The notes under the pieces were generated by a model. It had not been told where the DNA came from. It did not search any database and was given only the letters and a program-made list of their open reading frames with translations. Below are positions 15,495 through 19,270 of a stretch of DNA of 51,536 nucleotides, one piece after another. Position numbers and translations under genes: made by a program. How positions within the stretch are numbered: the stretch's first letter is position 1; each line of letters opens with the position of its first letter. This DNA is from Aquificota bacterium (GTDB lineage: Bacteria > Aquificota > Aquificia > Aquificales > Aquificaceae): positions 1-51,536 of the forward strand of contig JAADCR010000022.1 of the NCBI GenBank assembly GCA_013154375.1, written 5' to 3'.

Positions 15495-16822
15495 GGCGGC
15501 TTCACGCGTACGCGGGCTTTCTCGTAAGCTTCTGGCTGCTAGTTCTAACCCTTACGGGTCTGCTCTTAAACCACGAGAAGAACCTCTTTAGTCTTGACTT
15601 TCTGTGGAGGGTCGAGCTGCCGCGGTCGCTCTTCTCGGACCAAGCGTTGAAGCGTAACGGGAAGGCCGACATCACCTCGGCGGTAAAAACGCCCGCCGGT
15701 TACTTTATAGGTGCCTTTAGCGGTCTTTACGCGCCCTCGGGCCGGCGCGTCTACGAAGGGAGGGTGTTTAAGGTGGAGCTGCTAAGAAGCAGACCGAGGC
15801 CCGAGCTGCTTCTGGCCACCGACGACGGGTTAAAGCTTTACAAAGCAGGTAAAGTAGAGACGCTTGCGCTAAAAGGCAGAAAGGTTACGGCCGTATCGCT
15901 CAGCTACCCGAAGGTGCTACTCGTGGTTGACCGCCGCGACCTCTACCTGTACGACTTTAACGAAAAAAGGACGCTGTTTATCCCTACGCCCCTTAAAGCC
16001 GAGCCTACAAAAGAGGTAACGCTTAAGCGCTTCGTGCGCGACTTTCACTACGGTAGGGGTCTCCTGCCGGGCGAGAGCTCGGCACTGCTTAACGACGCGT
16101 TCTCCGTAGCCCTTCTGGTAAGCACGGTAAGCGGGTTTCTTTACTTTTTAGTTAGAAAGAGCCGCCGCAGGCGGCTTAAGCGGTTCCTCTTCCGCGTACA
16201 CGCCTCGCGCCTTCTGATTGTTACGCTGCCGTTCGTGCTCCTGCTTGCCCTTACGGGCTTGTTTATAAACAGGCCCCGGCTGTACGAGCCGCTGCTTAAA
16301 GAGAAGCTGCCCGAGCTGCTAACGCCGCCGGTCTACCGCGCGCCTTTCTACGACGTCTGGGACGCGGACCTAAGTAGCGGTACGGTAAGAATCGCCACAA
16401 GGCTGGGCCTGTACGAGCTTAAGCGCGGGCGCTGGGAGCTCGTCTACGAAGGCTTTACCTACCGTCTCCGGAGGTTCGGCGAGCGGCTCTATCTGGCAGG
16501 CATGGGCGTTCCTAACCGTCTGCTTTATAAAGGCCGGTGCTACGAGCTTCCCGGGGTGGTGAAGATGCCCGTCGACTTCGTAGTTAAAAACGGTCAAGTG
16601 GTTCCCGTAAGCCGCTCCGAGCTGCCCCTCGAGAGGGAAAAGCTCCCGCTTTACGAGTTTCTACTCTCACTCCACGACGCTACGCTAATAACGCCCGTTT
16701 TAAACGACTTAACGGGCGTCTTAACGGTTTTCCTGACGCTAAGTGCATCCTACTTCTGGCTAAAGAGAATAAAAGTAAGGTTTACCGCGAAGATGCCTCA
16801 GCCGGGAAGGAGTGAAGATTAA
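15491..16822 (+). CDS. PepSY-associated transmembrane protein
   Basis: A 443-residue inner-membrane protein of the PepSY-TM type. Hydrophobic helices lie at about 8-28, 205-228, 243-262 and 395-420. The first is preceded by RRLHAYAGF, and FHYGRGLLPGESS precedes the second, typical of the family's LH-x-x-x-G motifs. The two large loops (about 30-195 and 265-385) would lie in the periplasm and appear related to one another. Family members are linked to ferric siderophore reduction, cytochrome handling or periplasmic protease inhibition. No TonB receptor or siderophore gene is nearby, so the role is open. The PhoB-like repeat array upstream suggests control by the two-component system. Confidence 0.75.
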   Translation: MRRLHAYAGFLVSFWLLVLTLTGLLLNHEKNLFSLDFLWRVELPRSLFSDQALKRNGKADITSAVKTPAGYFIGAFSGLYAPSGRRVYEGRVFKVELLRSRPRPELLLATDDGLKLYKAGKVETLALKGRKVTAVSLSYPKVLLVVDRRDLYLYDFNEKRTLFIPTPLKAEPTKEVTLKRFVRDFHYGRGLLPGESSALLNDAFSVALLVSTVSGFLYFLVRKSRRRRLKRFLFRVHASRLLIVTLPFVLLLALTGLFINRPRLYEPLLKEKLPELLTPPVYRAPFYDVWDADLSSGTVRIATRLGLYELKRGRWELVYEGFTYRLRRFGERLYLAGMGVPNRLLYKGRCYELPGVVKMPVDFVVKNGQVVPVSRSELPLEREKLPLYEFLLSLHDATLITPVLNDLTGVLTVFLTLSASYFWLKRIKVRFTAKMPQPGRSED

Positions 16823-16889
16823 TGGTAAAGATTTAACTTTAAGTATTAAGATGTAAAGTAAGGTGGAGGGCACTTTCTGAGGGAAAAGT

Positions 16890-18086
16890 ATGACGGACAG
16901 AGTTAACGCCGTAATAGACGCTATAAAGAAAAGCAGTCTTAAACAGGTAATCCTGTACGGCCCTCCCGGAACGGGAAAGACGCATCTGGCTCAAAGAGTA
17001 GCCGAAGAACTTGTGTCAAGCACGTTAAAGTCCCCTAAGCTTTTCGAGCAGCACTGGAAAGCTTTCGTAGAGTTTCTGAGAAGAAATTATTTAAACCGGC
17101 AGTTTACAGCCAGAACGAAAAGCGGAAAAGTAAAAACGGCCAAGGTAGTTAAAGTAAACGATAAGCAAGTACGCCTTGAAATAGAGGGCGTAGCCCGGGG
17201 CGTTGGGATACGGCGCTTTAAAAAGAAAGTGGCCGAAGAGGCCGAGTACGACCCAAGTAAGTTTAAAAAAGGCGGAAGCGGAGATGTACCGGCGGAGCTT
17301 CTTATGAGCCTATTTTTGGGCCAGTTTCTTAACCATTTTGTTAAAGCAAATCTTGCCAGTTTTATCACCTTAGTTCAGTTCCACCCTTCTTACTCTTACG
17401 AGGACTTCGTGCGGGGCATACGGGCAAAAACCACAGAAGGTCAGGTAGTTTACGAGACGGTAAACAAGACCTTCGGACACGTCTGCGAACAGGCTTTAGC
17501 AAACCCCGAGAAAACCTTCGTGTTAATTGTAGACGAGATTAACCGGGCCAACCTACCGGCCGTACTCGGTGAGCTTATATACGGTCTCGAGTACAGAGGT
17601 AGACCCGTCGAGACGCCTTACGAGATAAACGGAACCTTTACGCTCGTCGTACCGGAAAACCTCGTCGTTATAGGCACCATGAACACCGCTGACCGGAGCA
17701 TAGGCTCTATAGACTACGCCGTAAGAAGACGGTTTCTGTTTTTTCCCGTACGAGCCGACAAGAAGGCTATAACGAACCAGAAAGCCCGCAGACTTTACGA
17801 ACAGGTAGTGGAAAGACTTTTCACGCCCGAGCGCCTCTCGGTAGACTTTCAAGACGCAGCTGAGGACCTAAAGGTAGGACATACCTACTTTCTAGGTACC
17901 GACGAAGAGGTAGCTTACAAGTTTACATACCAAGTAGTTCCTTTAATAGAAGAGTATCTGAAAGATGGCGTCTTTAAAAACGAAGAGGTAGTGAAGGAGG
18001 TTTTTACGGATACTTTCGGGAAGGAGGGTGAAAACTGGCACGAGCTAAGCCCCGAGACCGTACTCAAGAGCTTACGCGCCTTTTAA
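16890..18086 (+). CDS. mcrB: McrB-type GTPase/AAA+ subunit of a McrBC restriction system
   Basis: A 398-residue AAA+ motor of the McrB clade, which in E. coli hydrolyses GTP to translocate DNA and drive cleavage by McrC. Walker A is GPPGTGKT (24-31), Walker B is VLIVDEINRAN (211-221), and the clade signature MNTADRS (264-270) is exact. The conserved VQFHPSYSYEDF is at 162-173. There is no N-terminal methylcytosine-binding domain: the P-loop comes almost at once. About 130 residues separate Walker A from the conserved segment, far more than usual. The extra part includes a Lys-rich, beta-like stretch (about 70-118). GAGGG precedes the ATG. Base use is more A-rich than in its neighbours, suggesting transfer. 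Confidence 0.88.
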   Translation: MTDRVNAVIDAIKKSSLKQVILYGPPGTGKTHLAQRVAEELVSSTLKSPKLFEQHWKAFVEFLRRNYLNRQFTARTKSGKVKTAKVVKVNDKQVRLEIEGVARGVGIRRFKKKVAEEAEYDPSKFKKGGSGDVPAELLMSLFLGQFLNHFVKANLASFITLVQFHPSYSYEDFVRGIRAKTTEGQVVYETVNKTFGHVCEQALANPEKTFVLIVDEINRANLPAVLGELIYGLEYRGRPVETPYEINGTFTLVVPENLVVIGTMNTADRSIGSIDYAVRRRFLFFPVRADKKAITNQKARRLYEQVVERLFTPERLSVDFQDAAEDLKVGHTYFLGTDEEVAYKFTYQVVPLIEEYLKDGVFKNEEVVKEVFTDTFGKEGENWHELSPETVLKSLRAF

Positions 18087-18124
18087 AGAAGTTAGAAAAC
18101 CTCAGAGAGCACGAGCGCGTAAAA

Positions 18125-19270
18125 GTGAACGACGAGCTTGTAGCCGAGCTACGCAGGCTGGGCCTTTTTCCTAAAGGCCCCCTCGGTCTTCACCTGATAA
18201 CCGGAGACGACGGCTCGTTTTACCTCCGTGCCCACTACTTTATAGGCGTTTGGTGGCTTAAGGGCGGTAAGCAGTTCGTCCGCGTAAGGCCAAAATCGTT
18301 TAACGGTAAGTTCGTAAACGCCTCTAAGATGTTGTTGGAGATACTCACCGACCGCGAGGTGGCTAACGCTCCCGAGTTAAGTCAGGTATTTAAGGTAGAG
18401 CCCGACGAGCCGCTTATAAAGCTCGATGGACGGGACGAGCAGTTTCTTTTTTTTCTGCTAATTTACTACTTACGCTTGTTAAGCAAACTCGTAAAGAAGG
18501 GTCTTAAGAAAAGCTATGGCTTTATAGAGAAGGAACTAACTAGCCGTACGAAGGGCAAGCTTCTCGTCACGCCAACCTTAAGACGCTGCACTCTAAAAGG
18601 TCTCCCTTACAGGTCCGTCTGCCGTTACCCGGCTCTAACGGCAGATACGCTCGAGAACCGCATCCTTAAAGCCGCCCTTGTTTTAGCCTCCCAAAAGCTC
18701 CGGGACCTACGGGTGGCAGAAACGCTCGTTAGGTCCCTTAACCGCACTTTTGAAGCCGTATCGTTAACCCCCGTCTCAGAGACCGACTTTCTAAAGCTTA
18801 AACGCGCCCGGCTTTACCCCGAGTACGAAGAGGCCCTTAAGCTGGCCCGGCTCATTTTTTATCAGCTCGGCTACGACCCGCTTGCCAGCTCTACGGATTC
18901 CGCCATAACGGCCGTCCCGCCATATTCTATTAACTTACCCTTGCTTTTCGAGCTTTTCGTCTGGAAGAAACTAAAAGAGCGCTACCCCGGCCTCGTCCGT
19001 CGTAAGCCCCCTGCCGGCCAAGACGCGCCCGACTTTGTAGTAGAAGGCAGAGGCATAATAGACGCTAAGTACAAGTACGACGCCGAGCCTGACAGAAAAG
19101 ACGTATGCCAGCTTACGCGTTACGCAAGAAACGAAAATCTCCGTGCTTTTTTTGGCGGCGAGCCTAAGCTCTTTTTAGTCTACCCGAGCTTTAACGCCGA
19201 GACCGTAAAGCCGGTTAAGCTTTACCACGAGGTCTACCAGTGGCACCTCCCCGTCCCCTTTGTAGAATAA
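18125..19270 (+). CDS. mcrC: McrC-type nuclease subunit of a McrBC restriction system
   Basis: A 381-residue partner of the McrB motor. The N-terminal part is an all-beta/alpha stalk-like region. LPLLFELFVWKKLKE (about residue 280) and the C-terminal PD-(D/E)xK nuclease core follow: QDAPDFVVEG, then GIIDAKYKY with the D-x-K pair, then KDVCQLTRYA. The chosen start is GTG. The frame is open further upstream over the mcrB end but offers no ATG, GTG or TTG there. Thirty-eight bases separate the two genes. The stop lies only 4 bases before trpC, so the defence pair may share its transcript. It would cut DNA at modified sites if an unseen specificity determinant directs the complex. Confidence 0.85.
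   Translation: MNDELVAELRRLGLFPKGPLGLHLITGDDGSFYLRAHYFIGVWWLKGGKQFVRVRPKSFNGKFVNASKMLLEILTDREVANAPELSQVFKVEPDEPLIKLDGRDEQFLFFLLIYYLRLLSKLVKKGLKKSYGFIEKELTSRTKGKLLVTPTLRRCTLKGLPYRSVCRYPALTADTLENRILKAALVLASQKLRDLRVAETLVRSLNRTFEAVSLTPVSETDFLKLKRARLYPEYEEALKLARLIFYQLGYDPLASSTDSAITAVPPYSINLPLLFELFVWKKLKERYPGLVRRKPPAGQDAPDFVVEGRGIIDAKYKYDAEPDRKDVCQLTRYARNENLRAFFGGEPKLFLVYPSFNAETVKPVKLYHEVYQWHLPVPFVE

Follow-up and report, generated by a model that had tools for sequence, protein, structure and literature searches.

The McrBC pair and its surroundings

Two genes of the McrBC type lie side by side on the forward strand of the window, the whole 51,536-nucleotide stretch of DNA that was analysed, as read from its list of open reading frames (Table 1). 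The upstream neighbour of mcrB is a PepSY TM gene that ends 67 bp before the ATG, and trpC follows the pair at a distance of 4 bp. In the stretches compared from four genus mates, trpC does not have the window's other genes alongside. The GC minimum of the window coincides with mcrB (0.479 at 16800-18000 vs a mean of 0.572, sd 0.026, in 1197-bp windows), which fits an arrival from elsewhere.

Table 1. Positions of the McrBC genes and their features in the window
Feature	Position	Strand	Evidence or remark
mcrB-like AAA+ GTPase gene	16890..18086	+	ORF of 398 aa, lacking an N-terminal reader domain
Walker A GPPGTGKT, residues 24-31	16959..16982	+	sequence; invariant but for the T/S position in 11 aligned rows
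130-residue interval, Walker A to VQFHPSYSYEDF	16983..17372	+	E. coli McrB chain: about 25 by alignment
Inserted module between AAA+ alpha1 and beta2, residues 42-158	17013..17363	+	predicted structure
Four predicted beta strands of the insert, residues 71-106	17100..17207	+	predicted structure
VQFHPSYSYEDF, McrB motif after beta2, from residue 162	17373..17408	+	sequence and alignment
Walker B VLIVDEINRAN, residues 211-221 (VLIVDEIN 211-218)	17520..17552	+	sequence and alignment
NTAD, NxxD McrB GTPase signature, residues 265-268 (MNTAD 264-268)	17682..17693	+	sequence, alignment
mcrC-like gene	18125..19270	+	PF10117 4.3e-24; listed start GTG 18125
McrC nuclease centre D...DAK (D303, D313, K315)	19031..19069	+	invariant in three aligned McrCs

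The product of the first gene matches AAA_5 in Pfam at 1.5e-16, McrB chains of the PDB at 6.1e-37 and the PRK11331 McrB model at 3.5e-35, the last being under the model's own cut-off. Walker A, Walker B and the NxxD signature are all present, in line with the original prediction that the GTPase signatures are intact. Together with the AAA+ fold seen in the predicted model, they place the protein in the NxxD branch of the McrB/McrC family, a clade whose definition is taken from excerpts of PMC11090510. CoCoNuT proteins carry NxD instead of NxxD, and the MNTAD of the window McrB is NxxD. An AlphaFold2 model of the whole protein was obtained with a mean pLDDT of 82.6 (alignment of 11 rows), and its predicted core superposes on 6ut4 (Z 20.8, rmsd 3.3, 268 residues, 36% identity) and on 6ut6 (Z 20.4, rmsd 3.1, 246 residues).

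The adjacent McrC has a PD-(D/E)xK nuclease centre. Its frame is open upstream of the listed start as far as 18032, and the translated stretch resembles in alignment the McrC N-termini of two relatives, L002 and L003. This suggests that the true start lies upstream of GTG 18125, perhaps at CTG 18035, where it would overlap the end of mcrB.

McrBC systems form a large group of modification-dependent defences, and their targets are mostly read from N-terminal domains. The window McrB has no dedicated N-terminal specificity domain of the kind found in canonical Type IV McrBC. The motor starts at the P-loop, as had been noted earlier: 23 residues precede Walker A from the ATG and 26 with the open frame, which leaves no room for such a domain. 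From stop to stop the frame measures 401 aa, with just three codons ahead of the ATG. A reader hidden in another frame or encoded next door was considered and ruled out by the 67-bp upstream gap, the 401-aa frame, the flanking genes and the profiles described below. The original prediction would have been undermined by a separate specificity gene beside the pair; none adjoins it.

Among 136 genomes of the phylum, seven, counting the window's own, have a match at 1e-20. The closest two others are L002 (574 aa, same genus) and L003 (558 aa, same order), about 50% identical to the window McrB. In each, about 210 residues precede Walker A and an insert lies at the same site (intervals of 119 and 109 residues). 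The insert site is thus occupied with or without an N-terminal part. A profile of the N-terminal reader family of relatives (A6, 15 rows) had no match in the window's own genome (G000, 89.6% complete), and matched in the control genomes of both relatives (G003 and G041). The reader domain common to the closest relatives is absent from the window McrB. We call it a reader by its place and by known McrB N-termini, the typing test not being the basis of the name. Assignment of this family as EVE/YTH-like was suggested and not adopted, the EVE value of 0.065 for L003 being below the cut-off, and the 15-row profile found no significant chain in the PDB. Family searches with positive control genomes found in G000 no EVE domain, no N6/N4 methyltransferase family and no cytosine-5 methyltransferase family. 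The lack of these two kinds of methyltransferase fits a modification-dependent (Type IV-like) target. The genome has one McrB, and no full-length McrB elsewhere.

The insert of the window McrB

The original prediction described about 130 residues between Walker A and VQFHPSYSYEDF, Lys-rich and beta-like at residues 70-118. The interval measures 130, the predicted strands fall within the beta-like part, and the Lys-rich character is borne out: the insert (119 residues, 43-161) has 20.2% K+R and a net charge of +13, vs -6 for the remainder of the protein. It is the most basic of 11 such inserts (the others range from -3 to +6), a rank of 1 in 11 being weak statistics. E. coli McrB does not have an interval of this size.

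Structure prediction, which had been proposed along with these claims, goes beyond standard AAA+ elements: the window McrB is predicted to be an ordinary McrB AAA+ core in which alpha1 and beta2 are separated by an additional alpha/beta module. The predicted elements of this module are a helix (49-67), strands at 71-75, 81-89, 93-98 and 101-106, a second helix (107-117) and a long helix (134-158). Confidence is middling, with block means of 57-84 in the whole-protein model and a mean pLDDT of 67.9 when the insert is modelled alone.

Searches with the insert gave no Pfam family at E up to 5, nothing significant in PHROGs (best 0.058), and in the PDB by sequence HuD alone, at E 1. Foldseek on the insert alone returned nothing at or below 0.001, with Hfq, pyruvate carboxylase and a designed SH3 barrel in the top rows, and VIA gave a best Z of 3.8. 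The weak rows of the two programs include Hfq, designed SH3 barrels, Tudor and Spindlin. At most, the insert core may be called small-beta-barrel-like by its predicted structure, with no family assigned. Peptide patterns, three of them from the insert, found no close relatives of it in genome_contigs or viral_contigs, and none were found in plasmids or phages.

Ten other inserts of 95-126 residues occupy the alpha1-beta2 site (L002, L003, L016, L017, L019, L023, L029, L039, L063 and L069). Against their profile, the window insert scores 2.9 bits, with 41 of 999 shuffles as good, whereas each of the ten, left out in turn, scores 16.5-84.4 bits against the rest, with 0 of 300 shuffles as good in every case. 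A model of L002, L003 and L016 only raises the window insert to 4.6 bits (18 of 999 shuffles as good). It matches none of the three module profiles (reader, beta and alpha), and its placement in the beta class is by site, length and predicted secondary structure only. Between the window and L002, 17 of 98 insert positions are identical and 146 of 238 core positions; between L002 and L003, the figures are 39 of 93 and 172 of 237. Such fast evolution is not obligatory for inserts, since those of L019 and L063 keep 69 of 116 positions identical. As judged from these comparisons, the window insert would be either a strongly diverged member of the beta class or another module at the same place.

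Exchange of modules among McrB relatives

For a census of the site, one genome per species was used, and the best 80 of 569 relatives from genome_contigs were taken by motif patterns; they were chosen by likeness to the window McrB and are not a random sample. The counted set is 80 rows, including the window and further loci, after removal of motif-incomplete rows and copies. Dropped were L005-L009, L014, L038, L056, L078 and L090 (motifs incomplete by the first pattern), L015 (no FH motif found) and the copies L001, L010-L013 and L022. Under a looser pattern, L038 has an interval of 17 residues and no insert. Loci on viral contigs are mostly without a row.

Three interval classes emerged: 11 rows of a beta110 class (106-137 residues), 21 of an alpha250 class (241-253) and 48 with 62 residues or fewer. 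The search for other McrBs with an insert at this site, likewise proposed at the outset, therefore yields 32 of the 80 census rows, window included. In thirty of these 32, Walker A is preceded by 140 residues or more; only the window (26) and L065 (28) fall short. L065 was set aside as a second reader-less copy: no start codon (ATG, GTG or TTG) is listed ahead of its Walker A, and it may be a broken gene.

In a tree of the core, with the variable intervals omitted, L002 and L003 group with the window in a starred set (97/88), and addition of L016 gives another (99/98). Within this set of four, only the window copy is missing the N-terminal part, and that of L016 is of another kind than that of L002 and L003. 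The simplest reading, which the tree does not force, is loss of the N-terminal part on the window branch. The end branch of the window McrB is 0.46, vs 0.15 for L002 and L003.

The insert classes are scattered over the tree, with seven changes for beta110 and eight for alpha250, of which starred branches force at least five and at least six. L017 (beta110) and L094 (alpha250), for instance, are sisters (96/97). In addition, a single-linkage cluster of 35 related N-termini spans all states (18 alpha250, 12 none, 5 beta110). From this cluster and the scattered classes, it follows that variation at the internal site is largely independent of that at the N-terminus. In this family, the alpha1-beta2 position is an exchange site, at which unrelated modules are swapped between close motors like cassettes.

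The exchanged modules and the N-terminal ones share a pool at least in part, as became clear when the reader-family, beta-insert and alpha-insert profiles were run over 95 McrB-like proteins. The alpha profile matches 21 proteins at the alpha1-beta2 site, all its own members. It also matches residues 33-222 at the N-terminus of L127, before Walker A, at 8e-30 (tblastn 9e-9). L127 is an Acaryochloris plasmid McrB (1748-3760) with a different, 150-residue insert at alpha1-beta2, and there mcrC precedes mcrB. The reader profile matches 37 N-termini of the 95 proteins and, in four viral-contig proteins, a part inside the AAA+ core: L103 (residues 406-533, 4.8e-11), L110 (243-381, 8.2e-10), L108 (636-739, 2.7e-6) and L111 (638-686, 5e-4), all numbered along the open frame. 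In L103 and L110, the match sits between the FH motif and Walker B. The FH pattern missed L108 and L111, in which coordinates place the match between the two Walker motifs, after a readable FHQSMSYEEF. The beta profile matches only the alpha1-beta2 site of its own ten members. McrBs thus place N-terminal-type modules within the core, a movement proven directly in the case of the alpha and reader families but not of the window's insert. Searches of viral contigs returned none of the other insert families, those of phages no alpha250 module and those of plasmids no beta module. A winged-helix look of the L096, L127 and L128 inserts was dismissed as an impression only, to which Pfam gave no support.

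How the window pair might reach its target

McrB forms a GTP-bound ring, McrC stimulates the GTPase and cuts, and it is normally the N-terminal domain on which loading of the ring onto target DNA depends (excerpts of PMC7680126, PMC6344862 and PMC3874153). In the window pair, the motor and nuclease motifs that these activities call for are intact. With the N-terminal part gone and no substitute among the neighbours, the internal basic module would be the best remaining candidate for contact with DNA, and target recognition is a plausible candidate role for it. We tentatively propose, with a confidence a little short of even, that this pair of the NxxD branch has lost its reader and relies on the basic internal module to take over DNA contact for ring loading. 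The window lineage would have lost the fused reader and kept the motor; the diverged, positively charged internal module would now make the DNA contact; this contact would allow the McrB ring to be loaded onto its target DNA; and McrC-stimulated GTP turnover would then drive cutting by McrC. A wider form of the proposal is more doubtful, namely that McrB has three interchangeable recognition sockets (N-terminus, alpha1-beta2 loop, and the stretch from FH motif to Walker B), and that in the window lineage the N-terminal one is empty and recognition has moved wholly to the basic alpha1-beta2 module inside the AAA+ core.

The original prediction had suggested that the insert may be the recognition element in place of the missing domain. 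As a stand-in for the reader, it is weakened by the large majority of insert rows that have a long N-terminal part; reader and insert occur together in relatives, so the site normally acts beside a reader. The in-core reader domains also use another site, between FH motif and Walker B. The idea of a recognition module inside the AAA+ core has, in turn, gained from the cassette exchange at the site and from the movement of modules between N-terminal and internal positions.

The same coexistence (30 of the 32 insert rows) and the lack of a significant match to a known binding fold would suit an insert that is a structural or oligomer-contact element and does not take part in recognition, for instance one that keeps the ring stable or docks McrC or the N-terminal domain. 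For a plain structural part, neither the repeated exchange of unrelated modules between close motors nor the occurrence of one module family at the N-terminal position as well would be expected, and we regard this explanation as quite improbable. A reader acting in trans, that is, a short McrB with a separate specificity protein encoded elsewhere or unassembled, as may hold for LlaI and BsuM, is also unlikely. Precedents are the short McrBs LlaIB (337 aa) and BsuMIB (343 aa) of three-ORF cassettes (excerpts of PMC1459862), in which the third ORF presumably sets specificity. Comparable cases among our loci are L064, a 306-aa McrB without insert that has an overlapping upstream gene, and L096, a short McrB on a viral contig with a LAGLIDADG-like gene upstream and a methyltransferase-like gene downstream (the latter name being our own reading). 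The genome of the window is just 89.6% complete, and a trans reader could be missed. Against it stand the identity of the close neighbours, PepSY TM and trpC, and the empty reader-profile and EVE searches in that genome, with both profile controls found.

The module might, finally, be decaying or repurposed, the reader lost and the pair either heading for loss or acting as an McrB-S-like regulator. The N-terminal loss that parsimony places on the window branch and the longer end branch, which also fits relaxed constraint, would agree with this, as would the GC minimum at mcrB and the precedent of E. coli McrB-S (excerpts of PMC3874153). However, both ORFs and every checked catalytic motif are intact, the genome has no other full-length McrB to regulate, and McrC has not changed much faster than between sisters (0.406 and 0.417 for the window vs the sisters, 0.459 for L002 vs L003), with no jump like the insert's. 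We consider decay or repurposing rather unlikely. Should any of these alternatives hold, the locus would be an ordinary McrBC pair that lost its reader.

Comparison with known systems helps to place the pair. Thermococcus gammatolerans McrB (6ut3-6ut8) is similar in its AAA+ core fold, NxxD signature and paired McrC. Unlike the window McrB, it has an N-terminal YTH-fold 6mA reader (excerpts of PMC7680126), a short spacing from Walker A to the FH motif, and extra residues between FH motif and Walker B. E. coli McrBC shares motor and nuclease with the window pair. Its McrB-S has no N-terminal domain and still forms rings (excerpts of PMC6344862 and PMC3874153), and interferes with full-length McrB via McrC complexes unable to bind DNA (excerpts of PMC3874153). 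McrB-S arises as an additional product from the gene for full-length McrB, whereas the 401-aa frame of the window allows no longer product. LlaIB and BsuMIB are likewise short McrBs without N-terminal domain (excerpts of PMC1459862); they come from three-ORF cassettes, whereas the window has two genes, no third ORF beside them and a genome without the two major methyltransferase families.

Short McrB subunits (McrB-S, LlaIB and BsuMIB) are therefore already known, as are McrB insertions as likely specificity domains: Bell et al. 2024 (PMC11090510) state that insertions are frequent in McrB GTPase domains and likely encode such domains. In the Type I-A CoCoNuT, the insert sits between Walker B and NxD according to excerpts of that paper, which neither place nor name an alpha1-beta2 insert or a reader-less copy. 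The excerpted McrBC literature was found to describe neither the alpha1-beta2 site nor an exchange of cassettes at it, nor a reader-less copy consisting of two genes. Were internal cassettes to set targets too, many McrBs would have a second specificity part overlooked by annotation. A reader-less copy like the window's would then be a clean test system, and the question would bear on how DNA reaches the McrB ring.

Four further loci merit mention in their own right. On the viral contig of L096 (728-4775), the short McrB has 8 residues before Walker A in its ORF and is accompanied by an McrC. The LAGLIDADG-like match of its upstream gene is below the Pfam cut-off, and the downstream gene resembles a DNA methyltransferase. 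The locus may be a restriction-modification cassette whose specificity protein is homing-endonuclease-like. L064 (1013-2589) is deltaproteobacterial, and its McrB has no N-terminal domain; the overlapping upstream gene (219 aa, no Pfam match) is possibly a separate specificity subunit. Beside the McrB-like matches of L130 (3642-4934) and L131 (3638-4939), the genes in the McrC position are annotated 'guanosine 5'-monophosphate oxidoreductase' and '3-isopropylmalate dehydrogenase' and are probably misnamed McrC.
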